Origin: Anaerolineaceae bacterium
GTDB lineage: Bacteria; Chloroflexota; Anaerolineae; Anaerolineales; Anaerolineaceae
Length of the DNA stretch: 64,000 nt
Direction of reading: 5' to 3'
Assembly: GCA_029975475.1 (NCBI GenBank)
Contig: JARKPB010000008.1
Coordinates: 806,001-870,000, forward strand
Positions 2,233 through 23,090 of the stretch are shown in pieces. Under the pieces are notes generated by a model. The model saw only the letters and a program-made list of their open reading frames with translations, made no database searches and was not told where the DNA came from. Each line of letters opens with the position of its first letter. Within the stretch, counting starts at the first letter, position 1. The translations under genes were made by a program, and so were the position numbers.

Positions 2233-2910
2233 TTACTTATTCAACAAATTCAGAATCTTTTGAAGGACCTGGTCAACCGTTAACCCATCACTGGATATGA
2301 CGACCGCATCTTTTGCTGGCTTTAATGGAGCAATTTCGCGAGTCGAATCGATTCGATCGCGCGCTTTCATATCCTCCAGCACTTCTTGATACCCAATGGT
2401 TTTTCCCCTTTCCTGCAGTTCCTTCGCCCTTCTTTTTGCCCGCTCTTCAACAGACGCATCCAGGAATATTTTTAACCCGGCTTCGGGAAAAACCACCGTC
2501 CCGATATCACGGCCAACCATAATCACTTTGCCGCGGCGGCCAATTTCCCGCTGCTGCTGGGTCATTGCATCCCGAACGCCGCGGTATGCCGAAACCTGAG
2601 ACACATTTTGCTCCACTTCTCGCTTTCTGATTTCCCAGGTCACATCGACACCGTCCAGCAGAACATCGCACATGCGTTGATCCTCCACACTTGGGGGCCG
2701 CACATCAATTTTTATCTCTCTGGCAAGATTGGTGACAGCAGCTTCATCATTCACGGGAATCTGTTTTTGCAACATCGCCAGCGTAACCGCGCGGTACATC
2801 ACACCTGTATCTAAGTAGAGATACCCCAGCCGCCTGGCAAGAAGTTCAGCAACCGTAGATTTGCCAGAAGCGGCCGGCCCATCGATCGCAATAATGTCAG
2901 CATTTACCAT
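2233..2910 (-). CDS. cmk: Cytidylate kinase
   Basis: CMP/dCMP kinase transfers phosphate from ATP to CMP in pyrimidine nucleotide synthesis in the cytoplasm. The 225 residues show the family P-loop GPAASGKST at residues 11-19, followed by the CMP-site stretch LDTGVMYRAVTL, and later the VGRDIGTVVFPEA motif and the FLDASVEERAKRR lid region. Length is typical of bacterial Cmk. AAGGACAGG precedes the ATG as a good ribosome site. It lies 20 bases after a GT39-like membrane protein in the same direction. Cmk makes CDP, and the cluster encodes a probable CDP-sugar epimerase, but cmk is an ordinary housekeeping gene and the link is only positional. Confidence 0.97.
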   Translation of the reverse strand: MVNADIIAIDGPAASGKSTVAELLARRLGYLYLDTGVMYRAVTLAMLQKQIPVNDEAAVTNLAREIKIDVRPPSVEDQRMCDVLLDGVDVTWEIRKREVEQNVSQVSAYRGVRDAMTQQQREIGRRGKVIMVGRDIGTVVFPEAGLKIFLDASVEERAKRRAKELQERGKTIGYQEVLEDMKARDRIDSTREIAPLKPAKDAVVISSDGLTVDQVLQKILNLLNK

Positions 2911-2930: not shown

Positions 2931-4613
2931 TTATCGACTCGAAAACAAATCCGTTCTGGCCCACAGCAGAATCTTGTCCTCTTCATATTTCATGGTCCGA
3001 AACGCGAGCCACTGCGCCCAGGCAGCCGCATCCATCTGCGACCAATCCTGACGCCGCAGCCAGACAAAATCCTGGCCGCGGTAGGCTGAGGCCAGCTGCG
3101 GGGTAACACCAGAAGTCAGGATAATATCTGGATTGGAAACCGGGTTAAGCGCGGTCGTTTCGACATAATTCTTGTACGTGCGCAAATACCACCGCTGCGA
3201 AAAAGATGTTGTGCCAGCCGATTGAATGGTTAACTCACCCGGCACGCCAAAACGCCTCCAGGATAAATCATCCAGGGTAGCCTGCAACAGGTCAGCGTCC
3301 GCGGGATATGGGCGAGTATTCCACAACTCGGCTTCAGGATTCTTAGAAAGCAATGCAGCATGCCAGGATGTCGAGAGTCCGCTGATCAAGCCGAGCAGCA
3401 CAAGAGTAATTAACGCCCCTCGCTTTGAAATCTGAAAGGACCAGCCCCAGCCAACAAGGATATACGAAATCATCGCTAAAACCGGGGCGGTTAACAATCC
3501 GATCAACGAAAACTGATATTCGACCGTCCCGGGAATCCTTGAAAACAATCCCAAATAATTTAAGTAAGTAAAGATTCCTAAAACCACCCACAAGCCTGAA
3601 AAGGCGAGAACAGGAAAAGATACTTTTTCGGTATGAAGCGCCCGGGCAATCAGATAAGAAGCGCAGAATCCCAGCGGTATACTGAGCAAGACCCAATCGG
3701 TTGATTGGTGTCCAGGATAGAAGAGAACCACCAGCCCGCTGACCAGCAGCCACCGGCCGATGGCCCGCCGCAGCAGAGGCGGTATCAATCCGCCCAGGTA
3801 AGCGGTTGAACCCGCCAGCCCATAGAGGCTTAGATAAGCGATAAAAACCACCAGCATCCGCACCGGGGTCAGATCGCTGCTTTGAAACCAGGCGCTTACA
3901 AATGCAGCCAGGTCCTGAAAGGCCGCCGGAATTCCCGTCGGATAAAGAAAGAAACCAGTTCCGACAATTCCAAGCGTCAACGCCAGCCCGATCCCCAGCG
4001 CGCGAACGTTTCTTGTTCCGAGGAAAGTTTTCAAACTCGCCAGGGCTTCATCATCCGCTGGGGTTGTTAGTGAATAGACAAATCTGGTCACAATGAATAC
4101 CAAGAAAATTAACCATGCCGCCGGTCCGGACAATAGAAAGCCGCCCAGGAAAAAGCCTGCTAATCCTTCTTTTCTCCTGAGGAATAAAAGCGCCGCCGCC
4201 CCCAGGAAAAAGACTGCCATTACCGGGCTCTGCGCTGAAATGGAACTGTAGATCAATGCAGGGTCAAATGTCAGCAGCAAAATAAAGATTCCAGTGATGA
4301 GGGGACCCAGCGTATCCCGAACCAGTAACGGCAAAAACAAGATGAGCGAGCCGCAAAGAAATGGAAGCAATCGGGCGGTGACATCACTGGCTCCAAACAG
4401 CCAGTATGCCGCCAGGGTGAAAAGGCTGTAAAAAGCGTTCGACCAAATTCCAGCCGTGTGACCGCCGTAAAGTTGAAAGATTTGATAGGCGAGTTTCGCC
4501 TCACCCTCATCTAACGGCAGACGGATAAGCCCGGCAGCCCGTATTCCAATACCGGCGGCGATTACCACCGCGGCGAACCAGGGAGAAGATAGGATTTTTG
4601 ATAATTTCATCAT
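2931..4613 (-). CDS. GT39-like polytopic membrane glycosyltransferase
   Basis: The 560-residue protein is hydrophobic along most of its length, with about twelve likely membrane helices and a soluble C-terminal tail from about residue 430. Near the N-terminus it has a short loop with Asp35-Glu36 (RLPLDEGEAK), the place of the acidic catalytic or metal-binding pair of GT-C enzymes such as ArnT and protein mannosyltransferases. The downstream TARLLPFLCG stretch is also typical. It resembles the TIGR03663 (Agl23-like) group that often accompanies DUF2298 proteins, but where that family has an HGP tripeptide this protein reads GGHTAGIW. It overlaps the preceding DUF2298 gene by 4 bases (ATGA), implying translational coupling. 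Predicted role: transfer of sugar from a polyprenyl-phosphate donor outside the membrane; substrate unknown. Confidence 0.72.
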   Translation of the reverse strand: MMKLSKILSSPWFAAVVIAAGIGIRAAGLIRLPLDEGEAKLAYQIFQLYGGHTAGIWSNAFYSLFTLAAYWLFGASDVTARLLPFLCGSLILFLPLLVRDTLGPLITGIFILLLTFDPALIYSSISAQSPVMAVFFLGAAALLFLRRKEGLAGFFLGGFLLSGPAAWLIFLVFIVTRFVYSLTTPADDEALASLKTFLGTRNVRALGIGLALTLGIVGTGFFLYPTGIPAAFQDLAAFVSAWFQSSDLTPVRMLVVFIAYLSLYGLAGSTAYLGGLIPPLLRRAIGRWLLVSGLVVLFYPGHQSTDWVLLSIPLGFCASYLIARALHTEKVSFPVLAFSGLWVVLGIFTYLNYLGLFSRIPGTVEYQFSLIGLLTAPVLAMISYILVGWGWSFQISKRGALITLVLLGLISGLSTSWHAALLSKNPEAELWNTRPYPADADLLQATLDDLSWRRFGVPGELTIQSAGTTSFSQRWYLRTYKNYVETTALNPVSNPDIILTSGVTPQLASAYRGQDFVWLRRQDWSQMDAAAWAQWLAFRTMKYEEDKILLWARTDLFSSR

Positions 4614-7165
4614 GGTTTTCCGCCACTGCCTTGAGCGAGATCGAGCGGAACCTGGTAAATCAGGACGCCGTTTTGATCAAAGATCTTGGTTAAATTTTGG
4701 TCAAATTTTAACAGATTCGGGGCATAGGCACTGTATTCTAATGAGCCCACATATACATACCGGATCGAATACCTTTGTAAGATTTCTCTGGCTTCAGTCC
4801 AGTTGGTTGTCCGATACAGTCTTTCAATATCCGTGCCCCGGCTGCCCATCTCGGTATAGCCGCCTCGCCACTGGCTTTCGTGGCCGGGCCAGCCCAATAC
4901 ATTAGGATAGCCGCTAAACGTCGCGACCCGGGCGTAAGCAGTGTAGCTGCCCCCAACTGCTTCCGCTAATATCCCGAACGGCTGTTGTTTCAGAAAATGT
5001 ATCGCGGCGAATTCGTCAGGGTTATATTCCTTAAAAAAGCTCTGACCATCCAGTGTCCAGCGTTCTGGAGCGCTGAAATTAACCTTGCTGGATGTGATTA
5101 ACAATGGATAGGCTGAGCCCAACAGAAACACCAGGATTGATAGAGAAGAAGCCAGGAGGATCCAGCGCCTCTTTCCGGTCAACCATAATGCGCCCAGGCT
5201 GAAGGCAGCTGCTACCCCCCAGATTTGCCACCCCTGATAATAAAATTTGAAGATGGTATTCATTCGGTTGCCAAAAAAATCCAGCAAATAAAAGAATTCC
5301 GGAAAACCAACCACAGCCATACCAATCAAAACCAGGAATGCAGAAAACTTTACCGGCGTTCTTTTTTCCACTTCGTAAATCGCATGGTCTTCCTCAAGCG
5401 GCGGATCGTTTGGATCAACCGGTATATTTTTGCGCATCAACAGGGAAATTGTCAGCGCACCAAGCGCCATCAAGGAAAGCCAGGTGCCCGGTTCAACCAT
5501 CCGCCGCACCGTGGTTTTTACCAGCAAATCTGCCAGTCCGTCCGCCCCCTGTTTGTTCAAGAACAGATTGGCAGAATCCTTGAGTTTGTTAATGGCTGAA
5601 CTGTTTGGCCCAGCCAGACCCGTGATAAGTGCAGGCAGCGCAGTGATGAGAAACGCTGCCAAATAGGACAGAATCCAAAATGCCGCAATCACAAATCCGA
5701 TTCTGATGAGCGCAGGAAACCAATCGCCTTGTTTGTTCGTTGTCACTGCCTGATAGATAAAATAACCGAATATTGGCAGGAGCAGCGTTGCAAACATAAT
5801 CCAGAAATGGATACCCCGGGTAAAAAAACTTAAGCTGGGTAAAAGACCGCCAGCCTGTGAAGAGAAACCCAAAAAATATGGCAAATATAGAATACCGCCG
5901 CCAACACCGATCAACAGCCCGTATTGAATAAAATCAAGAAAAGCCCGGAAAAATTTTCCGTTCTGTTGATATTTTCTCAGAGCCAGCGCTCCGGCAAACA
6001 GCCCCGCGCTGGTGGGGAAGTCCCAGATATTCAGAAAAGCCATTCCGCCGGCAATCAGCGCAGCTGCCCACAGGTCAGGTTGAGGGAGGATCTTTGACAA
6101 TCCATTTTCAAGGCGAATGGCTGGTTTCTCACGAAAATACAGCCCAGCTGAAAACCCAATCGCCAAAATAAAAAACGGAATTGACAGCACATGCGGATGC
6201 AAATCACCCAGCAGCAATGAGAAATATGGGAATTCGTCAATCACCTCGTGCCATTGTCCGCGTAAATCATAATCCGACAATACCCTGGATGCCCGCCACC
6301 AGACAAGACCGCCGACGCGCTTTGGAAGAAAATCAAACGGCTCAGAGGGCGGGTCGCGCAATTCGCGAATATCCAGGCTGGTCCAAAAATTGGACTGCAG
6401 CCCCCCATCAGGTGCTGGCTGCCAAAATACGCCGCCGGCATGCAGCACCTCCAGAAAGCCCTCCGCGTTTCCCAGCCAGAAAATCAAGATTGGCGCTATC
6501 ACCGCCATTCCCAGCGCTTTTTTTCGGTCTGGGGTTAATTTCTCCAGCAAAGAATAAACGATTCCGTAGGCGCCCAGGCTTCCCATCGCGTACCAGGCAG
6601 CCAGTGAAAGGTTAAACGCGACCGCAGCAGCAGTGCCGGAAATTTTCGCCAGCATCGCCACCATGATGTAACCGAAGTAATAATAGGAAATCGCGTAGCC
6701 GGACAGCCAGGGATCATGGGGTGGGAAAAATTGCGACTGCTGAATGGCATTGATGAACGCCAGTTCCATCGGTTTTTCGGTTCCCTCAATATTGGGATTG
6801 CCAGCCCGAAGAACTGCGGATAGGGCAAAAATCGCTAAAAAGACAACCTCTTCAATAAGGACCAGGCGCCAGTTTTCACGCACCCAGGCAAAGGCCCCCT
6901 TCCAATTGCCGCGGGCGATTAGAAAATAAGTGAGCGCGATGAAAACAGCGACTGAAAAGAGAATCCCCCCTACCGTATTGCTTGAAATCCGCAAAGTGGT
7001 CAACCACCAAAAAAGGAAAGCCCATACCAGGATCCCGACCGCTCTGGAGAGGCTATATCCTTTATCGGCTAAAGATCCCAAAAAACGATAACTTAACGGA
7101 AAAGCGAATAGCCCAATCACCAGGATGATCAGGTACCACTCGAAAATTTGTAAGAAAAGAATCAT
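4610..7165 (-). CDS. DUF2298 (Chlor_Arch_YYY) integral membrane protein
   Basis: The 851-residue protein is strongly hydrophobic and carries the hallmark YYYFG at residues 161-165, within a conserved block that starts GTEKPMELAFINA and continues FPPHDPW. Further shared landmarks are a D-L-H-x-H motif (LLLGDLHPHVLSIP), RMNTIFKFYYQGW in the C-terminal half, and a late soluble segment with GYPNVLGWPGHESQWRGG. The same landmarks occur in the C-terminal half of the neighbouring 1763-residue protein, so the two are paralogues. The DUF2298/TIGR03662 family is known from Chloroflexi, some archaea and a few Clostridia and has no established function. Its length and motif layout suggest a GT-C-like enzyme. 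It starts 3 bases after the fusion gene and overlaps the next gene by 4. Confidence 0.9.
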   Translation of the reverse strand: MILFLQIFEWYLIILVIGLFAFPLSYRFLGSLADKGYSLSRAVGILVWAFLFWWLTTLRISSNTVGGILFSVAVFIALTYFLIARGNWKGAFAWVRENWRLVLIEEVVFLAIFALSAVLRAGNPNIEGTEKPMELAFINAIQQSQFFPPHDPWLSGYAISYYYFGYIMVAMLAKISGTAAAVAFNLSLAAWYAMGSLGAYGIVYSLLEKLTPDRKKALGMAVIAPILIFWLGNAEGFLEVLHAGGVFWQPAPDGGLQSNFWTSLDIRELRDPPSEPFDFLPKRVGGLVWWRASRVLSDYDLRGQWHEVIDEFPYFSLLLGDLHPHVLSIPFFILAIGFSAGLYFREKPAIRLENGLSKILPQPDLWAAALIAGGMAFLNIWDFPTSAGLFAGALALRKYQQNGKFFRAFLDFIQYGLLIGVGGGILYLPYFLGFSSQAGGLLPSLSFFTRGIHFWIMFATLLLPIFGYFIYQAVTTNKQGDWFPALIRIGFVIAAFWILSYLAAFLITALPALITGLAGPNSSAINKLKDSANLFLNKQGADGLADLLVKTTVRRMVEPGTWLSLMALGALTISLLMRKNIPVDPNDPPLEEDHAIYEVEKRTPVKFSAFLVLIGMAVVGFPEFFYLLDFFGNRMNTIFKFYYQGWQIWGVAAAFSLGALWLTGKRRWILLASSLSILVFLLGSAYPLLITSSKVNFSAPERWTLDGQSFFKEYNPDEFAAIHFLKQQPFGILAEAVGGSYTAYARVATFSGYPNVLGWPGHESQWRGGYTEMGSRGTDIERLYRTTNWTEAREILQRYSIRYVYVGSLEYSAYAPNLLKFDQNLTKIFDQNGVLIYQVPLDLAQGSGGKP

Positions 7166-7168
7166 CGC

Positions 7169-10100
7169 TTACCTTCGCAGCACTTCAAAAATCCTGGTAT
7201 CGCCGTCCCGAAAGACCTCTTTCCAGAGGTCTCCCTGCCATTGATCAAACTTTGCCAAACCTTCAGGCGGATAGACAGCCAGTTCTAGCTGACCCAGCAC
7301 GATATAACGAACGTTGTATTTGTTTAAGAATGCTTCAACATCCATTCTATCGTTCGATAGGTAAAAGCGGGTAACCTCTTCAACCCGCGGGCTGACCGGG
7401 TCAACCCCAAACAGAGAGCGCTGCTGCCGCTGATGCCAGTTCCAGCCAACCACACCCGGTAGCCCGGTATAAATGGTGTAACGCGTTCCCCAACGGTATT
7501 CCGGCACATTGGCTTCAACGATCACCGGGGACCCTTTTATCTCCGCCTGCATCCACCGGATTGCCCGGTAATCTTCATCAAGTTTGAAATCCCTGCCATT
7601 CTCTGAGTATCCCGCGAATGCCATATAGGACATGCCGTCAAGCGAGCGCGGTGCGGCGGGCGCAATCCGGTCCTGGATTTTGCTAATTCCGGCTTTGAGC
7701 GGATATAAAAACGCGTTCACCATCAAGAAAGCAAACACGACGCGCCACAGCGAGAGAGAAGCACGGCTTTGAGCAGAATTGCGAATTTTCGGCCAGATCC
7801 AGACCAGAGCGGCAGCCGCGGCCATCCCCAGAAGAACCCAGGATTGCAGGTAGAACTTGAAAACCGTATTCATCCGACCGATATCCCCGCGCAGGGTAAC
7901 AAACTCAACGATCAAGGTTAGTGCCAGACCGCAGCCAGCCAAAAACAGAATGGCCCGTTTGGCATTTTCAAGTCTGGGGCGGAGCAAGAGGATGACGATC
8001 CAAACGCCAGTGGGAAGAACAATCCATGCGATCTGGACACCGATCACCAGAAGAACAATGACCACAAGCAGTAAAGCGACCGCCGCGGCGAACAGGCTGT
8101 TTTTATAAGGCGCAAGCCGCCGCAGGGAAGATGCCGGCGTGGAGGCCATCCAGTCAACACTTTCAACTACCAACCAGGTCCAGAGAATAAATAGGAACAA
8201 CCCCCAGTGGGTCAGGTAAGAGTTAATCGGTGTGTAGGGGCCTTTCCAGATATCAAACGCGTTGTAGCCCTGAGCATACCAGCGCAAATAGGGCAAATAG
8301 GTGCAATAACTGAATAACCCCAGGAGGAGCACAGCCATCACGCCGCCTAAAAAGCGCGCTTTCCATCCGGTGTAACCGAGGAACAATTCCGACTGAAGCG
8401 CGCTCCATATCAACGCTCCGGATGCGATTACGAAGTAGGTCGGCAAATCCCAGGTGTTGATCGGCCGCAAACTGCCAATGACGATCCCGCCAAATATTAT
8501 TGTTACAAGAACGGCGGTCAGGGTTTTCCGATCAAAACGCGGGAGAGGGAAAACGCCCTTGAAATAGATAGATAATGCCCACAAAAACGCCAGGCCGGTC
8601 ACCGGCAAAGCGATCAGGTGAGCGTGCAAATCAGCATACAGGAAAGTAAAAAAGGGGAATTCCGTGATTTCACCAAACGGGATGGCACGGCTTGGGATCC
8701 AGTACCAGTCTCCGGTCGAATAAGGCAAACGCATTCCGCTGAGATACTGACCGATACCCTTAATAAACCAGCCGAATTTATCAATCAGCCCGGATGGTTC
8801 GATCACTCCGCCCGGTGCGCCAAGCCGCAGGATGCCGTCTAACACCATTTTCAGCGTACCTTGATTGCCTGCCAGGTACACAAAAAGCGCGGCAATTATC
8901 CCAGCCAAAACCGACTTGCTTGAGATCAAAGCCCGAATATTCTTCTTGACGCTTACAGAAGAGGACTGGAACAAATTATTAGCAAAGGAATAAACGGTAG
9001 CTGCCCCCAGGCTGAAAAGGGTCGGCAGGATGAAGTTATAGGCAATAGAAGGCACAATGCCCAGCAACTTCACCGGAGTTCCTACCAGGACAAATCCAAA
9101 GTAATAATAATTAATATAACCGCCCGCAAACCATGGGTCGTAAGGAGGAAAAATGGTGCTTTTTAGAACCGCGTTGAAATAGGAAAAATCCATGGGCTTT
9201 TCCCCGCCAAAGGCAGGATGCCAGAGATCACCATTTCCATACCGGATGACCAGATCGAGCAGGAAAAATGCCAGGATGACCAATTCAGCGGTTAAGAACA
9301 CTCCAGATTTATTTCGAATGTCCTCAAGAATTTTCTGACGGGTCAAATAAGCCAGGGCAAGGTTGACGGCTGCGATAACGACCAACACCAGCAATATGTT
9401 GCCTTTGCTGAATGAAAACCCGGTTGAGCCCAGCAGCCAGGAGAAATAAGCCAGCAAGATCAATCCAACCAGGCGGCTGGCGGGATAGGCATAATCACTT
9501 AGCCCATTGAATATGATCCGAGTGGATGGATAAACAAGCCAGCCAAGCAAGGTCAGGAACAGATACCAGTAGAGAACCCCAAGACCGGGGTAGCGGTTAT
9601 ACCATGCGTCGGGATGAAATAATTCCGACCATGTGCCGCCTTCCTGTTGAACGTTCAGCTGCTGGTCGTCCAGAAGAAGTGTCTTTGAAGAATTTTGGTT
9701 ATCGGCAGCGCCTGGATTTTTTATGATGCGGCTGGTATCAACCTGCTCCAGGAGCTGCCGCACCCGGTCAGGATCAAATTTCGCTGTCTTCTTAAAAATC
9801 ATCACTTTTGGATGATCATAAACGCTGAAAGCCTCTTCAGCGTACTGGGTATTAAATTCCCACCTGCCGAGGTTGGGATAAGAGGTAAATACCTGGACCA
9901 ACTCATAACCGAGCTGGCCTGAATACATGCCAGGCACTGCGTTTCGATAACAATTCAACACATTTTCTGAAGCCGGACAGCCAAGCAAGAGTCGGTAATA
10001 TGCGGTTGTCAACGGGTAGCGCTCTGGGACGCGAACAGTGGTACCCCACTGGCGGTTCGAGCTGATATAAATATAATCTGCCTGATCCAACGCCCGGGTA

Positions 10101-12460
10101 ATTCTTTCAACTTTTTCGGGATTATCATCCCAGTACAATTCCAGATTCAAATCTGTGCGGTACGCGCCGCTGGTATAACCGTTCCAGTCAATTCCATACC
10201 GGGAATACGGCAAGGGATCATCCCAGGATGATTCGAAAACCTGTTTCGACGCATGGATTCCAAGCTGACCATCACCGCTGCCCAGGGAGATTGCCAAGGT
10301 TACCGTGCTCCCTTTTTCAATTTGAAGCGGCTGATCAAGCTCGATTGTATAGGCAGCCCCACGGGGGTCGCTCCCCGATGCGCTGAAATTTGAACGAACC
10401 GTCCCCTGAACTTTTTCACCTTGCTGGTTTTCCAGAGAAACTATTAATTCTTTTTCAACGGGATTTCCGCTGCGGTCAACCACACGGTTCAGCAGGATTT
10501 GGCGAACCTCACCCGTCTGAATGGCTGTAAAAGAGGTTGAAAAAGATTTTTGGGCTGTGATCGCCATCACCGGTTCAGGCAGCCAGTCCCAAATTTCCCT
10601 TCCGTTATCGACGAGGGTCAAATTGATCGGCCCGTAAACGTTGATTTGTTTATCTGGCTCAGCCAGCCGGGCGATAAACCGGTATTTTTTTCCAGCTTGT
10701 AGAAAGAGAGCCTGATTGAAAAATACCTCAGCTTTATCTCCGCGCGGATCTCCCCCGCGGTACATAAAATCGGATTGTGTAAAAGCGGTGCCAATGGTCA
10801 AGTTCGAGTCTACATCAACCACATCCAGGAAGAGGCTCTTAATATCCGCGGTCCCGGTCGCGTCGATGGCGTACGTGAAGGTCACCTTTTGCAGTTCAGC
10901 AGATTTTTCAGGCTGATACAGCATATCCATTGGCGCACTGGCACTGATGGTATCCCCCAGTTGATAGGCGACCGGTTGATTTATTAATCCATTCGCGGTC
11001 TCTATTGGCACGGTAATCGCAGCCGGCACATTCTGGTAGATCCAGTCGGAGGCCGCCAGACGGGTTATAGGACGGGTGTAGATACGGGTAAACGCAAACG
11101 CCCAGGCTCCTGTCCCAACCAGGACGATCGCCACGGAAGCGATCGACAGGATTTTCTGCCAGGTAAACGCGCTTTCTTTCTTTCTCCAGGCCCAGCGAAC
11201 CAATTCAGCCAAACCCCAGCCGGCGATAACCGTCAGGGTTGGATAAATTGGTAGCTGATAGCGCATTGCCCTGGTATGGTTTATCGATTGCCACACAAAA
11301 ATCAAAGCTGTCCAACTCCAGGGAATCAGGAGAGTCAGTTCTTTTTTCTTAAAAATGCGATAAGCAATAAATATAAAAGCCAGCCACGCGGCCAGTCCAA
11401 GGGGCAGCCCTAAACCCCAGAACACCATATTTTCAAGCGCAAATGTTATCGGCCGGTTAACCCACTGAAGTGCCGGTGGAAAATCTGCCGAACCGCTGCT
11501 AAGCACAGAGATTTCGCGAAGGTTCGCGACCCAACGTTCATTGATGGAGAGGCCAAAGAATCCCGGGCCCATAAAGGCATAGGGATTCAGAACACGAAAT
11601 GTAACCAGAGAGACGAATGCTGCCAGGATCACCCCGCCGGTTAATGCCCAGATGTAATTACGGCGAGAAGTCTCCGGGATGGATTGATACTTTACCCAGG
11701 CTGCCAGCGGAAGAACGGCAGCGAGAGGAGCGGCAGAAACCTTCGAAGCCACCGCCATACCCAGCGCAATGCCGAAGGCGATGAAGTTAATATAACCCGG
11801 TGCGCTGCGCTTGAGCCAGTGAAGTATTCCGCGGGACGGATTTGAGCCGTCCAGATAATCCATCGGATCGCTGGAAGGACTTTTAACTTGTGATACGGCT
11901 ACCCGCGCGGCGAAGAGCAAACCCAGCGTAATAAAAAATACCAGATTCGAATCAACCGTGTAAAAATGCGCAGATTGAATCGGAAGAACGGCAAACGCAT
12001 AAAGCGCTGCGGAAAGAACCGCCGCGTCCTCCCTCCGCAACAAAGTACGCGCCAGAAAATAAACCAGCAAAATCGTAAGCGTATCAAATAAAGCAGAAAT
12101 CGTCCGGCCAACCATCTCGGTTTCGCCAAACCCAACCTGTCCAATGGCATCACCAACCGCGCGCGTGATAAAAAGCGGCCAGGTACCGTACACAAAGAAA
12201 CCGTGACCAAGATTGTGAGGATTCAGGCTCGATTTGGCTGTATCGAAATACTCCGACAAGCCGGAGACGGGCCGCATATCCGATGTGACCCAGGTGACAA
12301 AACGTTCGTCCGGATGAAGATGGTTGCCCTCTCCCCAATCCAAACCCACGGTTCTGAGAAGCGCGCCGGAGATTAGGACCAGGATCAGGAGGATATCCCA
12401 GCCAAACCGGGAAATTGCATTACTACTCAACTTATGCACGCTGCGATTATTTTCAACCAT
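7169..12460 (-). CDS. Giant GT39-DUF2298 fusion membrane protein
   Basis: At 1763 residues this is the largest protein in the window. Residues 1-460 form a polytopic GT-C-like module: the first loop has HPDERF with Asp51-Glu52, followed by the HGFFVYGTWPLF segment that matches PMT/GT39 proteins. Residues about 465-900 are mostly soluble and beta-rich, begin with the ASDWIYQNVP stretch seen after GT39 helices, and should face outside. Membrane helices resume near 955 and lead into a full DUF2298 module with YYYFG at 1118-1122, DLHAH, RMNTVFKFYLQSW and a final GLPGVVGWNWHQRQQR segment. The reading frame is continuous, so this is a real fusion and not a merged call. Start: ATG 12460 with TTAAGGACT upstream. 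Function is unknown; a two-active-site lipid-sugar processing enzyme is my inference. Confidence 0.88.
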   Translation of the reverse strand: MVENNRSVHKLSSNAISRFGWDILLILVLISGALLRTVGLDWGEGNHLHPDERFVTWVTSDMRPVSGLSEYFDTAKSSLNPHNLGHGFFVYGTWPLFITRAVGDAIGQVGFGETEMVGRTISALFDTLTILLVYFLARTLLRREDAAVLSAALYAFAVLPIQSAHFYTVDSNLVFFITLGLLFAARVAVSQVKSPSSDPMDYLDGSNPSRGILHWLKRSAPGYINFIAFGIALGMAVASKVSAAPLAAVLPLAAWVKYQSIPETSRRNYIWALTGGVILAAFVSLVTFRVLNPYAFMGPGFFGLSINERWVANLREISVLSSGSADFPPALQWVNRPITFALENMVFWGLGLPLGLAAWLAFIFIAYRIFKKKELTLLIPWSWTALIFVWQSINHTRAMRYQLPIYPTLTVIAGWGLAELVRWAWRKKESAFTWQKILSIASVAIVLVGTGAWAFAFTRIYTRPITRLAASDWIYQNVPAAITVPIETANGLINQPVAYQLGDTISASAPMDMLYQPEKSAELQKVTFTYAIDATGTADIKSLFLDVVDVDSNLTIGTAFTQSDFMYRGGDPRGDKAEVFFNQALFLQAGKKYRFIARLAEPDKQINVYGPINLTLVDNGREIWDWLPEPVMAITAQKSFSTSFTAIQTGEVRQILLNRVVDRSGNPVEKELIVSLENQQGEKVQGTVRSNFSASGSDPRGAAYTIELDQPLQIEKGSTVTLAISLGSGDGQLGIHASKQVFESSWDDPLPYSRYGIDWNGYTSGAYRTDLNLELYWDDNPEKVERITRALDQADYIYISSNRQWGTTVRVPERYPLTTAYYRLLLGCPASENVLNCYRNAVPGMYSGQLGYELVQVFTSYPNLGRWEFNTQYAEEAFSVYDHPKVMIFKKTAKFDPDRVRQLLEQVDTSRIIKNPGAADNQNSSKTLLLDDQQLNVQQEGGTWSELFHPDAWYNRYPGLGVLYWYLFLTLLGWLVYPSTRIIFNGLSDYAYPASRLVGLILLAYFSWLLGSTGFSFSKGNILLVLVVIAAVNLALAYLTRQKILEDIRNKSGVFLTAELVILAFFLLDLVIRYGNGDLWHPAFGGEKPMDFSYFNAVLKSTIFPPYDPWFAGGYINYYYFGFVLVGTPVKLLGIVPSIAYNFILPTLFSLGAATVYSFANNLFQSSSVSVKKNIRALISSKSVLAGIIAALFVYLAGNQGTLKMVLDGILRLGAPGGVIEPSGLIDKFGWFIKGIGQYLSGMRLPYSTGDWYWIPSRAIPFGEITEFPFFTFLYADLHAHLIALPVTGLAFLWALSIYFKGVFPLPRFDRKTLTAVLVTIIFGGIVIGSLRPINTWDLPTYFVIASGALIWSALQSELFLGYTGWKARFLGGVMAVLLLGLFSYCTYLPYLRWYAQGYNAFDIWKGPYTPINSYLTHWGLFLFILWTWLVVESVDWMASTPASSLRRLAPYKNSLFAAAVALLLVVIVLLVIGVQIAWIVLPTGVWIVILLLRPRLENAKRAILFLAGCGLALTLIVEFVTLRGDIGRMNTVFKFYLQSWVLLGMAAAAALVWIWPKIRNSAQSRASLSLWRVVFAFLMVNAFLYPLKAGISKIQDRIAPAAPRSLDGMSYMAFAGYSENGRDFKLDEDYRAIRWMQAEIKGSPVIVEANVPEYRWGTRYTIYTGLPGVVGWNWHQRQQRSLFGVDPVSPRVEEVTRFYLSNDRMDVEAFLNKYNVRYIVLGQLELAVYPPEGLAKFDQWQGDLWKEVFRDGDTRIFEVLRR

Positions 12461-12468
12461 ATGAGTCC

Positions 12469-14607
12469 TTAAGGCTGACCTGAAATTGGGACAGATCGAT
12501 CAGGCGGCACAAGAAAAATGAAGTAATCCTTGCCCTCAAGCCGGGCATTGTGATAACTGGTAATTCCATCAGGATACAGATTTTGAAGCTTCTTCAGGCT
12601 TTCAAGATCCTTCTCGTACACAATAAATAATTTTGGCGCAGGAATATCCAGAGTGGTATTAAAATCCTCGGGCCATAGAGCGTAATCTTTTCTTGGAAAG
12701 CCAGCGTTGATGCCCACCAGGCGCGTATCAACCCAGTAGGGGTACGGCACCACGTAGGCGGTTTCAGAGGAACCAATCGTATCCGCGTAAAACCGAATGG
12801 TCTTTCCGATCTCGCTGGTATTCCACGCGCCGGCCATAAATTGTCGGTCAAATGTCGTGAAAACCAGGGAAGCATTTTGAACCATACTGATGATATACAA
12901 CATGAGGCCCGCAAGGATTGCGATGGCTTTCCCGGATTTCCCGCCAAATTTCTCCATGATTGACCGTAAAAATCCTTCTAAGCCAAACGCGGCCACAATG
13001 AAAATCGGGATATATGCCGCAGCGCTGCGGTTCAGGGATGGATTTTCTTCAGGGAACGCCAGCGATAGAATGGATGGCATCATTAATAACGGAATGGACA
13101 AAAGGACCGCCAGGTCTTCCCAGCTTCGCTTTTTATAATACCGAGAAATTAACCCGATGGTCCCCACAAAGTAAAAAGCGGCAGAAACCACGTCCAGGGC
13201 CGGTCTGCCGGGGATGGAATGAACCCAGATTACGCCATTATCCAGGAACGGCATGAGAAGTGACTTCCATAAATTGTTGAGAAAAACCAGGATGACTGAA
13301 CCTTCAACTGCGCGTTCGCTGCCTGTCATCCTGGAAAAAGCGCGATAGCCAAACATATCCGGGTTCTCAGTCCAGTAGCGGGCAAGAGGAAGAAAAATGA
13401 CAAAAGCAGCGAATGCCAGCAGGATAAAATTCATGAGCGCATCCTGCCGATACCCGCGGGACTGGCGGTGAACCAGGAAAACCAGGAAAATAACCGCCAG
13501 CACGATGGGAACAAAACGCATCGGGCTGTACCCATGCAAACCAATGCCCAGGAAAATCCCCGCGAGAATAAAATCATTGCGGTTCATGCTGCGCAGCCCG
13601 CGAATGAGGAAATACAGCGCCGGAGCGGCAAAAAGTGGATAGATGGGAAACCGAAGACCAACCCGCGAAATGACATTCGGCCAGTAAGCGATGCCGCTCA
13701 AAGCCAGCGCTGTAATCCCAACCCAGCGATTGCCGATTTCTTTACCCAGTAAATAGATAAACGGCAGGGTAAAAATCCCGCACAGAACCGTGCCCAATTT
13801 CAGCGACATAAAGCTGATGCCGGTTCCAAAAGCCTGGCTGATAAAAGCCGTCAGGTAAAACTGAAATGCCTCACGGCCAGTGTTTCTGGGAAAGAAAATG
13901 CTGTACTGCCCGTCCAAAACATCCATGACGTCATACAACTTTTCTGCGTGGTCGCTAAACATTTCCCCAAGAACGCTGTCCAGACGGTAAAAACGGAAGA
14001 TCAAAGAAATGGTGACAACTGCAAGGATCAATAAACCAAAGCGGCTGATGGATATGGTCCAGGTTTTCTTTTTAAGATACAAGCCCAGGCGCTGGATAGG
14101 ATGATTCCGCCCGGGGACCCAAAAAGCCCAGAGAAAAGCAGCGATCGCCAGAAACCAGATGGTGACATTCAACAATGTAAAGCGGTTTCCGGAGAATAAA
14201 AAGAAACCCAGAATCAGAAAAATTAAACAGGCTGCCAGAGCCCCGGGGAAGAAACCGGCTGATTGCTCGAGTTTTTGGCGTTCAGGAAGATCCGCGGGCT
14301 GCCACTCGCGCTTTATCATTGCCCAGACCAGCCACATCGCGGATAACAGATAGAGAAATACCGCGGACGTTAAATCCCGCCCGCCTGGCTCTAAAAGCAA
14401 CTGAGCCAGCAAAGCCAGGAAAACAGCAACCGCAGTGCGCCAGGGAAAACGCCGGTTTTCATCTTGCGGTTTCACGGCTGCGTCTGCTGGAAGCGCGTTA
14501 AGGGGCAGCGGGGATTCCGAAGGCGCCTCTTCAGGCGCGGCGAGGTCGATCTTTTTTCTGCCAGGCAGAAGGCTTTTTAAATAATCCAGTACACTGGGTT
14601 CTTCCAT
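12469..14607 (-). CDS. GT39-like membrane glycosyltransferase with cytosolic N-terminal region
   Basis: The 712-residue protein has a polar, Pro/Ala-rich N-terminus (residues 1-55), two to four helices (about 58-100 and 120-165), then from about 190 a GT-C body. The first loop of that body reads RLDSVLGEMFSDHAEK, with Asp219, His220 and Glu222 in the position of the acidic pair of ArnT/PMT enzymes. NTGREAFQFYLTA and the LGKEIGNRWVG helix pair follow, as in GT39 proteins. A soluble C-terminal tail starts near residue 590. It lies 8 bases upstream of the fusion gene and 32 bases after the methyltransferase. No Shine-Dalgarno is obvious before ATG 14607. Likely an inner-membrane transferase using a polyprenyl-linked sugar; acceptor unknown. 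Confidence 0.75.
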   Translation of the reverse strand: MEEPSVLDYLKSLLPGRKKIDLAAPEEAPSESPLPLNALPADAAVKPQDENRRFPWRTAVAVFLALLAQLLLEPGGRDLTSAVFLYLLSAMWLVWAMIKREWQPADLPERQKLEQSAGFFPGALAACLIFLILGFFLFSGNRFTLLNVTIWFLAIAAFLWAFWVPGRNHPIQRLGLYLKKKTWTISISRFGLLILAVVTISLIFRFYRLDSVLGEMFSDHAEKLYDVMDVLDGQYSIFFPRNTGREAFQFYLTAFISQAFGTGISFMSLKLGTVLCGIFTLPFIYLLGKEIGNRWVGITALALSGIAYWPNVISRVGLRFPIYPLFAAPALYFLIRGLRSMNRNDFILAGIFLGIGLHGYSPMRFVPIVLAVIFLVFLVHRQSRGYRQDALMNFILLAFAAFVIFLPLARYWTENPDMFGYRAFSRMTGSERAVEGSVILVFLNNLWKSLLMPFLDNGVIWVHSIPGRPALDVVSAAFYFVGTIGLISRYYKKRSWEDLAVLLSIPLLMMPSILSLAFPEENPSLNRSAAAYIPIFIVAAFGLEGFLRSIMEKFGGKSGKAIAILAGLMLYIISMVQNASLVFTTFDRQFMAGAWNTSEIGKTIRFYADTIGSSETAYVVPYPYWVDTRLVGINAGFPRKDYALWPEDFNTTLDIPAPKLFIVYEKDLESLKKLQNLYPDGITSYHNARLEGKDYFIFLVPPDRSVPISGQP

Positions 14608-14639
14608 TCGGGCTCTACCGGATGATGAAATTTGGTTGA

Positions 14640-15434
14640 TTATACCCGCGCAGCAATATAAAAACTATACGCCCCATTGCTGCAGGGTTTTTCATTTATG
14701 TAAATTTTTCTAAGACTTGGTTCAAGCAGAATGAAATTCCACTTCTTTTCTGCCAGATTCCAGCGGCCGAAAATTTTTCTGGAGAACAAAGAAGGCAGCC
14801 CAAAATAATGCCCCCATTCCAGACAGGCTAACGCTTCAGGGGAAAAATAATCCCACTGATCAACCACTCTTAACCCGGCCGTCTTCAGGCGGTTTTCCCA
14901 GGTCAGGACATCATCCGTATGATAATGGCGCGAGATGCGGTTAAAAAAGGCGCGGTAACCCCTTGCCAGGATGTTCAAACCAATCCGATCCAACCATCTG
15001 GCGAGGGAAAGGTTGGCAGTAAAGCGCTGGTTCGGGACGCAAAAAATAAAGCGCGCTTCCGGTTTCATGACCCGCGCGACTTCCTTGAGAACAGGGTCGA
15101 GATCGGGGATGTGCTCGAGAACCGAATTGCTGATGACCGTGTCCATGCTCTGATCTTCTAATGGCAAAGAGGCTCCCTCCCCCCGAACAGCCAGGCGGTA
15201 AATCCCCCGGCCGGCCGCTTCCCGTAAAGGACCTTTCCATGGATCCAGCCCAATATCAATCGGCCGGGTGAAAGTAGTCGCGGCAAAGTGACCGTCTCCA
15301 CAGCCAAGGTCAAGGATTTTTCCATGAAGCGGCAGGTCATCGTAAAATCGAGCCTCGACGGCGCGCAGCAGAGCGCGGAAATACGGAAGCCCTTTAAGAT
15401 TTATCCAGAGATGATCCGTAGAATTTTCTGCCAT
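14640..15434 (-). CDS. Class I SAM-dependent methyltransferase
   Basis: The 264-residue protein has the SAM-binding motif I ILDLGCGDGHFA near residues 39-50, an acidic end of the second strand (DIGLDPW), the SMDTVISNSVLEHI motif around residue 107, and a post-motif strand FIFCVPNQRF. This is the Methyltransf_11 type common in glycan clusters, where such enzymes O-methylate sugars, cap chains or modify lipid carriers. The C-terminal 80 residues are not recognisable. The start codon shares one base with the stop of the GT4 gene (TGATG), so the two are translationally coupled. Cytoplasmic. The exact acceptor cannot be named. Confidence 0.85.
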   Translation of the reverse strand: MAENSTDHLWINLKGLPYFRALLRAVEARFYDDLPLHGKILDLGCGDGHFAATTFTRPIDIGLDPWKGPLREAAGRGIYRLAVRGEGASLPLEDQSMDTVISNSVLEHIPDLDPVLKEVARVMKPEARFIFCVPNQRFTANLSLARWLDRIGLNILARGYRAFFNRISRHYHTDDVLTWENRLKTAGLRVVDQWDYFSPEALACLEWGHYFGLPSLFSRKIFGRWNLAEKKWNFILLEPSLRKIYINEKPCSNGAYSFYIAARV

Positions 15435-16609
15435 CAGGATTTGTCGCTTTGAGGCTGCGGATGCAGCAGCTCCAGAAACAGAGTTTCATACTGTCGGGCG
15501 ACCGAGTCAGGAGCGTATTCAGCCTGCAGCGCATCTTTAGAAATAACGGGAAAATCGCTTTGCAGAATTTCTACGACAGCCTGAGCCAGAGCCGATGCGC
15601 TGCCAATCGGGATTATTTTTCCCAGACCGTGGCGCAGTACTGGCTGGCGGACGCCCGGTAAATTTGAGGCAACACACGGAATGCCGTTTAACATGGCTTC
15701 GATTTGAACCAGGCCAAATGATTCGGTTGAATTCAATGACGGTAATACCAGCACATCGAGCATGGGATAATAAGCGGCCATCTGTTCGGGGGTGAGGTTG
15801 CCAAGAAATCGCCAGTTTCCTGCTTCAGCCAACCTGTCAATTTGCGGCTTGAGCCGGGCGAAATAGGATTCTTCACCAATAATATTCTGATAAGGCCCGG
15901 CAAACAGCACCAGGGCTTTGGGATACAGCTTCAATATTTTAGGCATGGCATTTATTAATACTTCCACACCCTTTTCGCTGGCAAATCTGGCGGCCATTCC
16001 GATGACCGGCGATTGCTTTCCCGGATTCCATCTTTCCTTGAAGGCCTTTTTATCCGCTTCACTGATGGACGGCAATTCAACCGGTGGTGAAATTACTTTG
16101 ATCTTCTTTAATAATCTACGTAAATACGGCGAGCTCTCAGCATAATCCCGGGTATACGCCACGACGCGGTGGGTAAACAATCCGGCGAGATTATTCATCA
16201 ACAGAATCGCCTGGTTGGCAACCCAGGCTAGAAAGCCCGGGGGCATCTGCAAATCGCAGTGATAGGTAATCACAGTCGGCTTGTTCATGATTCGACCGCG
16301 CAGCGCCAGCCCGGCGGCGTCGAACTGAGGTAGATGCAGGTGGATCACATCTGCCCAGCGCGCCTGGCGAGTCGCCTCGATACCAAACCCGGGCATAATC
16401 ACCCCTTTGCTGATTCGAAAAGCCACAGGAACGCGGATAATCTCAACACCGTCTACGGTTTCGCGTCTGGAAAGCGCGCTGGAATACTGCGATGTGAGGA
16501 TGCGCACAGTGTGGCCTCTGGCAGCCAGCGCTTTTGCCAGGCGTTCAACATAGATGGTCAAACCGCTGGTGTGCGGCCGATAGTACGTGAGCGCAATCAG
16601 AATTTTCAT
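15434..16609 (-). CDS. GT4 family glycosyltransferase
   Basis: I place the start at ATG 16609 (MKILIALTYYRPHTSG), giving 391 residues. The frame is open further upstream, but that part lies inside the epimerase gene, and 16609 makes a 4-base ATGA overlap with its stop. The sequence has the GT-B architecture: the N-terminal Rossmann half with GLTIYVERLAKALAARGH, a hinge, then the nucleotide-sugar half with VIGMAARFASEKGVEVLI and the E-x7-E-like motif NSTESFGLVQIEAMLNG near residue 290. Such enzymes (glycogen-synthase-like GT4) use nucleotide sugars and retain the anomeric configuration. With the adjacent SDR epimerase it probably adds one sugar to a lipid-linked glycan on the cytoplasmic face. 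Confidence 0.9.
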   Translation of the reverse strand: MKILIALTYYRPHTSGLTIYVERLAKALAARGHTVRILTSQYSSALSRRETVDGVEIIRVPVAFRISKGVIMPGFGIEATRQARWADVIHLHLPQFDAAGLALRGRIMNKPTVITYHCDLQMPPGFLAWVANQAILLMNNLAGLFTHRVVAYTRDYAESSPYLRRLLKKIKVISPPVELPSISEADKKAFKERWNPGKQSPVIGMAARFASEKGVEVLINAMPKILKLYPKALVLFAGPYQNIIGEESYFARLKPQIDRLAEAGNWRFLGNLTPEQMAAYYPMLDVLVLPSLNSTESFGLVQIEAMLNGIPCVASNLPGVRQPVLRHGLGKIIPIGSASALAQAVVEILQSDFPVISKDALQAEYAPDSVARQYETLFLELLHPQPQSDKS

Positions 16610-17640
16610 GCAGATCCGAAAAGTTGCCGATTTTTCTCCACCCAGTGAACCAACTGAGTAATGCCGTCCGCGACTTTTATCTGCGGTGCCCATCCCAGTT
16701 TTTCTTTGGCGGACCGGATGTCCGAAATATATACTTTTTGGTCTCCTGGACGCCAGCCGCCGTAACTTACAGTAATTTTTTCCCCGGTGAGCTCCTCTAA
16801 TAACGGCCCAAATTCGTGCCAGATGGATATCGTGTGACCGCTGCCGCCGCCGATATTGAATACCCGCCCGGCGACCTGATCTATTTTTTCGAGCGCAAGA
16901 TCATAAGCATTGAGGAGATCATCCACGTGCAGGATATCCCGCACCTGTTTGCCATCCCCGTAAATTTTAATCGGCCTGCCGGTTAAAGCGGCGATAACAA
17001 ACCAGGCGACCCAGCCCTGATCTTCAATCCCAAACTGCCTGGGCCCGTAGATGCAGCTCTGGCGAAACACAACCGTTGGCAACCCGTAAATACGATAGTA
17101 ATCGCGCACATACTGGTCGCCGCTTCCCTTAGAACAACCATACGGCGAATGAAAGTCGAGCGGCTGCGTCTCGGCTGCCCCGTGTGGTAAATCAGCATAG
17201 GTGTAGCGGGTTTCGAGTTCTTTTACTGCCACATCGTCCATTCCCCCGTAGACTTTATTGGTGGACGCGTAGAGGAGCGCGGGTTTCTTTTTTGACTGCC
17301 GACAGGCTTCCAGGACGTTAAATGTGCCCAGCGCGTTGATTTCAAAATCCTCCCTGGGCCGGGTAACCGAGGTAGTCACCGCCACCTGCGCGGCAAGATG
17401 TACGACTACATCGGCATCCTGCACCGTTTCCGAGACAACCGCGGAATCGCGGACATCCCCTTTGATCAGGGTAAATGATTTTTCACCATAGGTTTCCCGC
17501 AGCCATTCCAGGTTTATTTTCGCGCCTGCGCGGCTCAAATTATCCAGAATGGTCACCTTTTCCCCGCGTTGAAGCAAGCGGGAAACATAATTTGAACCAA
17601 TAAACCCTGCGCCGCCTGTGATCAGGTAATGTGGTTTCAT
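16606..17640 (-). CDS. NAD-dependent SDR epimerase, CDP-tyvelose/paratose 2-epimerase-like
   Basis: The 344-residue protein opens with the NAD-binding GGAGFIG motif (residues 8-14) and has the NLSRAGAKINLEWLR stretch, an STNKVYGG strand, and SPYGCSKGSGDQY with the Tyr-x3-Lys catalytic pair of extended SDRs. The NLSR..NLEWLR and STNKVYG blocks together with FRQSCIYGPRQ are characteristic of RfbE-type CDP-tyvelose 2-epimerases. The other CDP-3,6-dideoxyhexose genes (rfbF, G, H, S types) are not in this window, so the precise substrate remains uncertain; another nucleotide-sugar 2- or 4-epimerase is possible. It starts 6 bases after the flippase-like gene and is coupled to the GT4 gene. Confidence 0.85.
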   Translation of the reverse strand: MKPHYLITGGAGFIGSNYVSRLLQRGEKVTILDNLSRAGAKINLEWLRETYGEKSFTLIKGDVRDSAVVSETVQDADVVVHLAAQVAVTTSVTRPREDFEINALGTFNVLEACRQSKKKPALLYASTNKVYGGMDDVAVKELETRYTYADLPHGAAETQPLDFHSPYGCSKGSGDQYVRDYYRIYGLPTVVFRQSCIYGPRQFGIEDQGWVAWFVIAALTGRPIKIYGDGKQVRDILHVDDLLNAYDLALEKIDQVAGRVFNIGGGSGHTISIWHEFGPLLEELTGEKITVSYGGWRPGDQKVYISDIRSAKEKLGWAPQIKVADGITQLVHWVEKNRQLFGSA

Positions 17641-17646
17641 TAAAAA

Positions 17647-18669
17647 CTACTCCTTTGATCCTTTTTCCCAGCCTGCAAACTCAGAAGCGTTTGAACGGAA
17701 AATGGCAGTAATTTTTTCGCCAGAAAACAATACGCCAGCCAGGCTATAAAATGCGGTTACTGTAAATTGCATAAAGTGCATGAAGATCGCATATGCCAAC
17801 GCTGATGAGGTATCAACGTTCAATATCGCCAGCGCGCCGACAATCGCCCCTTCCCACACGCCAAGAGCAGCCGGGGCGGAAGGTACGGCAACCCCCATCG
17901 CCAGCGCTGCATTCACAAACGCTCCCCACCATAGCGGCGCCCCCGGGGCAATGACCTGTAAAGCCAGATAATACTGCAGAACAGCAATCACCCAGGTGGC
18001 GCCAATTAACCCCAGACAGGCTAAAAACCTGCCAGGGTTTTGCAAAACACTCAACCCGTTGATCAAAGCGTCCAGTTGAGGGACGACAACCCGCTGAAAA
18101 AAGTTCCAGCGCTTCCCAAGCCGCTCAGCCTGAGCTTTCACCCAGATATGATTCCGAGAAATTAAGAATAAGACTAAGAATCCCAAAGCGACCGCAGCCA
18201 GGGTAAATATTGCGATAGGACGGGCTGAGTCCAGCCCTAAAGCCATCGGCAAGGTCGCGAGCATCATCCCTGCGGCGAAGAACAGATCAAATGCGCGCTC
18301 GATGATGACGGTCGAAATGACATGGAAACTGCCAACGCCGCTTCTTTCCCCGACCAGGATGGACTTTCCAATTTCTCCTGCCCGCAGGGGCAAAAGATTA
18401 TTCAAGAGGTAGCCGACATTCAGCCCCCAAAAAGTCAACCGCCAGCGGACGGGCTGATTGATCAACAACTTCCACATAAAAGCGCGGATGGACAACCACA
18501 GCGTGGTCAGCAGAAAAATGGCTGCAAAGATGCCCGGCCGGAATTTCAACAAACTGGTGGATAATGAGTCCCAGTTTGAAAATTTCAGCAGGATGGCAGC
18601 AACCACCAGGGTTATGATAACCCCTGGCAGCCAGTTCCAAATTTTATTCCAACGGGTTGGGGTTGACAA
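17647..18669 (-). CDS. UPF0104 / lysylphosphatidylglycerol synthase TM-region-like membrane protein
   Basis: The 340 residues form about eight membrane helices and carry the family landmarks NNLLPLRAGEIGKSIL near residue 90 and a short ERAFDL motif near 124, then GVWEGAIVGAL near 280. The family (UPF0104, LPG_synthase_TM, AglD-like) includes the flippase-like part of MprF and proteins of archaeal and bacterial glycan loci. It lacks the soluble aminoacyl-transferase domain of MprF. Between lepA (3-base gap) and the epimerase (6-base gap), it could move a lipid-linked sugar or lipid across the membrane. That role is inferred from family and context. Confidence 0.85.
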   Translation of the reverse strand: MSTPTRWNKIWNWLPGVIITLVVAAILLKFSNWDSLSTSLLKFRPGIFAAIFLLTTLWLSIRAFMWKLLINQPVRWRLTFWGLNVGYLLNNLLPLRAGEIGKSILVGERSGVGSFHVISTVIIERAFDLFFAAGMMLATLPMALGLDSARPIAIFTLAAVALGFLVLFLISRNHIWVKAQAERLGKRWNFFQRVVVPQLDALINGLSVLQNPGRFLACLGLIGATWVIAVLQYYLALQVIAPGAPLWWGAFVNAALAMGVAVPSAPAALGVWEGAIVGALAILNVDTSSALAYAIFMHFMQFTVTAFYSLAGVLFSGEKITAIFRSNASEFAGWEKGSKE

Positions 18670-23089: not shown

Positions 23090-23090
23090 T

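Follow-up and report, generated by a model that had tools for sequence, protein, structure and literature searches.

The closest described relatives of the proteins considered here are the GT-C glycosyltransferases (STT3/AglB/PglB, PMT/GT39, ArnT, DPY19, ALG and Emb/Aft), whose essential acidic motif, according to one publication, sits after a transmembrane helix (PMC6801728). A second point of comparison is Agl23 of haloarchaea (TIGR03663), described as a putative flippase for hexose-phosphate-dolichol (PMC11182771). In a third paper, the family DUF2298 (PF10060, TIGR03662, also Chlor_Arch_YYY) is listed for a Chloroflexi genome together with two proteins of the PMT2 type (PMC8756737). We analyzed a stretch of 64,000 nucleotides from a 3.15-Mb Chloroflexota genome (G000:C18:806001-870000; the window), in which a run of eight minus-strand genes contains two DUF2298 modules, one as a standalone protein and one fused to a GT39-type module. 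The best explanation of this locus, to which we give a probability of about 0.7 on the basis of sequence and predicted structure, is an outer-face glycan-assembly operon in which the DUF2298 proteins would be GT-C glycosyltransferases acting on polyprenyl-linked sugars. Compared with the described systems, it represents a known superfamily, an uncharacterised family and an unusual covalent pairing of GT39 and DUF2298 modules.

Family, predicted fold and conserved positions of DUF2298

The standalone DUF2298 protein (4610..7165, on the minus strand like all genes of the run; 851 residues) and the DUF2298 domain of the fusion (residues 1002-1544, 7829..9457, in a 1763-residue protein encoded at 7169..12460) score 339.3 and 364.9 bits with PF10060 (cut-off 27.8). 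The scores of the two modules with TIGR03662 are 480.6 and 494.3 bits (curated cut-off 300.25), so that both are well over the cut-offs of the described family, which is resolved here into two apparently ancient subfamilies, one of them GT39-fused. For structure prediction of the standalone form we used an alignment of 78 standalone proteins; the named-locus scan had taken the best 80 of 522 relatives, and 77 of these 80 were used after a filter for length and contig edges. The resulting model had a predicted local distance difference test score (pLDDT) of 93.7 and a predicted template modeling score of 0.94.

In a second look with VIA, the 33 best entries of the PDB were GT-C enzymes or complexes containing one, with Z values from 8.3 to 14.2, and the following row had a Z of 4.6. 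The enzymes among them are ALG12, STT3/AglB/PglB, AftA, DPY19, ArnT, Emb and AftD; for 8b6l, 6ftg and 9n9j, the STT3 identity of the matched chain was taken from the title or the aligned range. AftA, matched over 492 residues at 5.2 Å (Z 12.2), is among the structural neighbors of widest coverage, and the top matches in Foldseek were DPY19 (E 2.9e-5) and AftA (E 1.6e-3). The C-terminal globular domain (residues 710-840, 4646..5038) superposes on the C-terminal domain of AglB (3vu0; Z 9.4, 2.8 Å, 112 residues), a likeness of the predicted model that is a shared fold and says nothing about function. The GT-C-like fold, against which an earlier note on this DNA had suggested checking the DUF2298 module, is borne out by the predicted model and the PDB comparison, and it is weak by Foldseek alone. 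In Pfam, DUF2298 probably belongs to the GT-C clan already.

In its N-terminal half (residues 1 to about 930, 9671..12460), the fusion matches the PMT profile PF02366 at 41.5 bits (cut-off 22.7) and carries a DE motif in the first outer loop, the two features by which a GT39/PMT-type protein is recognized. The model of this half (pLDDT 87.0) includes a beta-rich insert at about residues 482-742 (10235..11017; strands assigned by DSSP) and matches AglB (Z 30.9), ArnT (Z 27.4) and Pmt4 (Z 27.1). The assignment of this half to the GT39-type GT-C proteins, already made in the earlier note, agrees with both the PMT match and the predicted fold. With one GT39/ArnT/STT3-like half and one DUF2298 half, the fusion thus carries two predicted GT-C modules on one polypeptide. 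Some relatives have three such modules per chain, since single proteins in L067, L092 and L064 (2498, 2681 and 2353 residues) consist of a GT39 part and two DUF2298 parts. Our literature search, which had most subscription journals outside its scope, returned no paper titled on such fusions under multi-module GT-C wording and nothing on DUF2298 under other names.

Residue conservation was counted in 130 standalone and 106 fused DUF2298 domains, using the numbering of the window's DUF2298; these 236 sequences include near-identical and identical rows (e.g., L049 and L145). Position 130 is Glu in 129/130 standalone domains (Asp in one) and in 106/106 fused domains, position 134 is acidic in 129/130 and 104/106, and Asp151 is Asp in 129/130 and 101/106, respectively. 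His323 is invariant, and Asp321, His325, Arg634, Asn636 and Lys640 are retained in all or nearly all domains. The acidic, histidine and arginine positions are thus shared between the standalone and fused forms, and position 766 is Trp in 125/130 standalone domains and Gln in all 106 fused ones. Glu130 and Glu134 come after helix 99-121 of the model, so that an acidic pair stands where a GT-C protein is expected to have one, in the loop that follows the first core helix; the ExxxE/D spacing is wider than that of the classical DxD. Acidic pairs near the start of the GT-C parts are also present in two further GT-C candidates of the locus, GTa and GTb, and in the GT39 half of the fusion, where His49-Pro50-Asp51-Glu52 (HPDE) is invariant in 46 aligned sequences. 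By this comparison, Glu130 and Glu134 may form the catalytic or metal-binding site of DUF2298. The predicted fold of both modules and the acidic pair after a helix are common to the GT-C superfamily, whereas DUF2298 is set apart by an N-terminal extension of about 90 residues that contains membrane helices and by the motifs DLHxH, RxNT and GWxxH.

Two plasmid-borne copies were observed in other organisms. The Halarchaeum gene (L173/L186, NZ_CP054708.1) spans the start of a circular plasmid record and is absent from the PLSDB gene table; that of Pseudobutyrivibrio xylanivorans (L174:9926-12181) lies within a polysaccharide-type locus and keeps the conserved motifs. Most conserved positions are present in both proteins, single changes excepted.

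Standalone and fused forms across Chloroflexota

DUF2298 was found in 142 of 147 genomes of the same family, including 64/64 of good quality, and in 263 of 400 Chloroflexota genomes (182/284 of high quality). Two of 14 control genomes, both archaea, also contain it. The relationship between the two forms was examined in a tree of 118 of the 239 domains (60 regions, the window and six named loci) that was computed by a quick method and rooted at the midpoint, and in which 25 of the 118 rows have an unusual composition. One branch with a support of 100 separates 53 standalone rows from 65 fused rows, suggesting that the duplication of DUF2298 and its fusion to GT39 predate the sampled Chloroflexota lineages. 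The rows from two same-family genomes are identical to the loci of Bellilinea caldifistulae and Ornatilinea apprima, and one region (L086, genome G307) holds two standalone forms, the fusion not being found within that region. Among the 55 named loci with enough sequence, 46 have the fusion upstream of, and on the same strand as, the standalone gene; GTa is downstream in 43/59 named loci and a cmk-type gene in 37/59. The widely kept unit is the fusion together with the standalone DUF2298, often accompanied by TIGR03663-type proteins. A predicted GT-C fold, two seemingly ancient paralogous forms and the GT39 fusion would turn DUF2298 into a testable set of glycosyltransferases, and the surface glycans of cultured relatives that carry it (Bellilinea caldifistulae, L145; Ornatilinea apprima, L094) can be examined directly.

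The association with TIGR03663 was counted in the 400 genomes, assumed to be the same across the profile searches (the genome identifiers agree), at best-match thresholds of E≤1e-30 for DUF2298 and for the phosphoribosyltransferase discussed below and of E≤1e-25 for TIGR03663. Both families were present in 244 genomes, DUF2298 alone in 9, TIGR03663 alone in 5 and neither in 142; these counts track phylogeny and are not independent. The co-occurrence that the earlier note had cited is thus confirmed, with 244 joint occurrences against 14 discordant genomes, and DUF2298 may act in a phylum-wide partnership with Agl23-type proteins. When ten proteins were scanned, seven were over the TIGR03663 cut-off, one (L063:5019-6794) was below it and two were ClpB-like. 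Six TIGR03663 members adjoin DUF2298 genes (regions L063, L069, L071, L077, L079 and L086), and the true TIGR03663 protein of the window's genome is encoded on another contig (L182:9889-13338, on G000:C13). The C-terminal part of the latter protein matches NHL-type ScyF/ScyE models below the cut-off, and the combination of TIGR03663 with an NHL-type part also occurs in L063, L069, L071, L077 and L079. The ClpB-like ATPases, for which TIGR03346 was the best model at scores under its cut-off, are encoded at L070:15503-17977 and L084:6216-8711, in DUF2298 regions from elsewhere in the phylum.

Several observations weigh against a glycosyltransferase role in a glycan-assembly operon. By Foldseek alone, only 3 matches of DUF2298 reached E≤0.001, and these had TM-scores of 0.32-0.42 and a root-mean-square deviation of about 13 Å; VIA warns that a Z under about 13 may reflect the common arrangement of helical folds; most matched ranges exclude residues 1-90; and sequence profiles link DUF2298 to no solved GT-C protein, a further difference from that superfamily. 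The cytoplasmic partners in the locus (GT4, SDR and methyltransferase) are lineage-specific by the tblastn counts given below, and the Halarchaeum neighborhood, a single archaeal region, is without glycan genes. No activity is shown for any DUF2298 in the literature covered by our search. Finally, Agl23 itself is called a flippase, and a GT-C-like fold therefore need not mean transferase activity.

This last point leads to the alternative in which DUF2298 is an Agl23-like transporter or scramblase of lipid-linked sugars that has a GT-C-derived fold and no transferase activity. The almost one-to-one co-occurrence of the two families is in line with it, as is the report that purified Haloarcula hispanica Agl23 translocated a lipid-linked oligosaccharide in liposomes (PMC11182771). 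However, the conserved polar positions, with Glu130 and Glu134 after a transmembrane helix, are those expected in a GT-C active site, and a scramblase would have no obvious need of the AglB-like C-terminal globular domain. We therefore regard a pure scramblase as improbable and favor the transferase reading.

A bolder form of the transferase reading is that the paired DUF2298 proteins are the outer-face glycan transferase of most Chloroflexota, with a role like that of STT3 elsewhere: a lipid-linked glycan would be transferred to a protein or surface polymer, and the joined GT39 and DUF2298 modules would pass the growing glycan between their active sites. The AglB-like C-terminal domain hints at such a role, and so does the distribution of strong STT3 matches (E≤1e-15), which occur in 1/253 DUF2298-positive genomes versus 8/147 others. 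The STT3 profile (PF02516) gave no match in the whole genome of the window; among the 400 genomes, 109 had some match, 48 were over a loose cut-off and 9 reached E≤1e-15. Since 48/400 genomes have STT3 over the loose cut-off, and since two archaeal controls, Haloferax volcanii and Methanosarcina acetivorans, have both STT3 and DUF2298, a replacement of STT3 is not general, and we consider this extension doubtful. If it were true, the DUF2298 pair would be a new transferase class and the first case known to us of a single chain that works as a multi-GT-C assembly line.

The eight genes and the question of the donor

The remaining genes of the run also point to glycan synthesis. GTa (2931..4613, 560 residues) is an Agl23/TIGR03663-like GT-C candidate for which Pfam gave no match at E 0.01. 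In NCBIfam it matches TIGR03663 alone, at 33.8 bits and below the cut-off of 126.25, and membership in that family was rejected. GTa is thus a weak relative of haloarchaeal Agl23; true members of TIGR03663 co-occur with DUF2298. The acidic [DE]xE motif of GTa comprises residues 36 and 38, which are Asp or Glu in 56/62 and 60/62 relatives, respectively. GTb (12469..14607, 712 residues) is a PMT_2-type GT-C candidate (31.2 bits, cut-off 26.1) with an acidic DxxE motif, in which Asp219 and Glu222 are each kept in 63/64 relatives.

The following genes encode a class I SAM-dependent methyltransferase (14640..15434; Methyltransf_11, 59.1 bits), a cytoplasmic glycosyltransferase of the GT4 family (15434..16693; Glycos_transf_1, 97.9 bits), whose best solved chain is the distant relative PimA (4n9w, E 5.9e-15), a nucleotide-sugar SDR (16606..17640) and a flippase-like membrane protein of the UPF0104/PF03706 family (17647..18669; 125.6 bits, cut-off 33.4; TIGR00374, 53 bits, cut-off 43.2). 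By far the closest solved relatives of the SDR are CDP-tyvelose (paratose) 2-epimerases (9rl0, E 3.3e-101; 1orr, E 5.4e-88). Two other assignments, dTDP-glucose 4,6-dehydratase (TIGR01181, 213.8 bits against a cut-off of 365.1) and GalE, were rejected, since both fell below the cut-off and CDP-tyvelose 2-epimerase is closer.

In the scheme that we favor, the core would be the ancient DUF2298 pair, one member of which is fused to a GT39-type enzyme. Inside the cell, a precursor would be synthesized and modified by the SDR, GT4 and methyltransferase, and its passage through the membrane might be aided by the UPF0104 protein. Outside, sugars would be added by five GT-C modules carried on four polypeptides: GTa, GTb, the standalone DUF2298 and the fusion with its two halves. 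DUF2298 would take its sugar from a polyprenyl-phosphate or polyprenyl-diphosphate carrier at the outer face. The genes and their order, the families, the predicted folds and conserved positions, the ancient pairing and the TIGR03663 co-occurrence are results of computation; the enzymatic activity, membrane side, donor type, joint working and division of labor of these proteins are inferred. The conserved set of membrane enzymes probably builds a sugar structure outside the cell, and a lipid-linked glycan, the product suggested in the earlier note, is plausible. Through the SDR, GT4 and methyltransferase, the pathway is proposed to take on a character particular to the family.

A more specific alternative concerns the donor. 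Mycobacterial Emb/Aft enzymes use decaprenyl-phosphate-arabinose, and the GT-C proteins of the locus could likewise use a polyprenyl-phosphate-pentofuranose made by the decaprenyl-phosphate phosphoribosyltransferase encoded nearby on the plus strand (22196..23089), a curated match to NF008977 (256.8 bits, cut-off 234). Mycobacterial arabinan assembly shares with the locus this nearby gene and the structural likeness of DUF2298 to AftA, one of its neighbors of widest coverage. In the 400 genomes, DUF2298 and the phosphoribosyltransferase occurred together in 233, DUF2298 only in 20, the transferase only in 10 and neither in 137, and nine genomes chosen by eye have the two genes within about 10-21 kb of each other. 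However, this presence pattern tracks phylogeny, the two genes are over 200 kb apart in G151 and G192, and the transferase matched in 0/40 of the 20-kb regions outside the family. Because the 20 DUF2298-positive genomes without a strong phosphoribosyltransferase match (20/20 of which retain TIGR03663) have DUF2298 nonetheless, and because no DprE1-type ALO domain was found in the window's genome, in contrast to mycobacterial arabinan assembly, we keep the pentose donor as a rival and judge it unlikely. The phosphoribosyltransferase is a possible maker of a polyprenyl-phosphate-pentose donor, and its membership in the glycan system is weakly supported.

Other genes of this part of the window were observed as well. 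Within 22196-24860, the phosphoribosyltransferase is followed by two kinases, one for mevalonate and one for isopentenyl phosphate (of archaeal type), and each of the three scores above its curated cut-off. A mannose-1-phosphate guanylyltransferase-like gene at 30030-31121 (TIGR01479, 288.2 bits, below the cut-off of 372.95) is a possible source of GDP-mannose.

Borders and gene neighborhoods of the locus

The earlier note described the run from 2931 to 18669 as eight adjacent minus-strand genes that overlap or lie at most 32 bases apart. The open reading frame (ORF) coordinates confirmed all eight genes and their spacing, which from GTa upwards is an overlap of 4, gaps of 3, 8 and 32, overlaps of 1 and 88, and a gap of 6 bases. 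The overlap of 88 bases between GT4 and the SDR shrinks to 4 if GT4 begins at the internal ATG at 16609, the likelier start. The borders did not hold. A translation factor gene that we take to be lepA from its sequence (18673..20475, minus strand) lies 3 bases upstream of UPF0104, and a presumable cmk kinase gene (2233..2910, minus strand) lies 20 bases downstream of GTa, and the same-strand run is therefore longer than eight genes.

To describe the neighborhoods of DUF2298, 60 regions of 20 kb were used (20 from the same family, 7 from the order, 7 from the class outside the order and 26 from the rest of the phylum). The presence of a neighbor was scored by tblastn (E≤1e-5), independently of ORF calling, since the caller missed DUF2298 in L060 and possibly elsewhere. 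All 60 regions showed DUF2298 signal and 55/60 had the GT39 half of the fusion, a count that is biased because the regions were chosen by hand and mostly centered on fusion matches. Because all query proteins came from the window, distant relatives are under-counted; for example, L063:5019-6794, with a TIGR03663 score of 63.8 bits (below cut-off), was left unlabeled by these queries.

The earlier note had also linked DUF2298 to GT4, epimerase, methyltransferase and UPF0104 genes. This link stood within the family, where GT4 was present in 20/20 regions, the SDR in 17/20, UPF0104 in 18/20 and the methyltransferase in 18/20, and it stood in part in the order (6/7, 4/7, 2/7 and 6/7, respectively). 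Beyond the order these partners were rare, both in the class (1/7, 0/7, 2/7 and 3/7) and in the rest of the phylum (3/26, 1/26, 5/26 and 4/26), so the link is not a general property of DUF2298. The gene order recurs in the 20 same-family regions and largely also in the taxonomic order, and it is therefore not due to chance. A lepA match was found in 20/20 same-family regions, and cmk in 19/20 same-family and 5/7 order regions. Least likely of all is that the eight genes are neighboring housekeeping genes and glycan genes that share no pathway and are kept together by slow rearrangement: lepA and cmk do frame the run on the same strand with tiny gaps, and operon membership alone is therefore no proof of shared function, but in the order, whose seven regions gave no lepA match by tblastn (E≤1e-5), the fusion-standalone pair and the GTb/GT4/methyltransferase block remain linked, and the fusion persists throughout the phylum.

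Elsewhere on the same contig, several neighboring ORFs on the plus strand (within G000:C18:554001-574000, L184), each about 450-535 residues long, appear to encode multi-spanning GT39-type proteins, and one of them has a weak PMT match.

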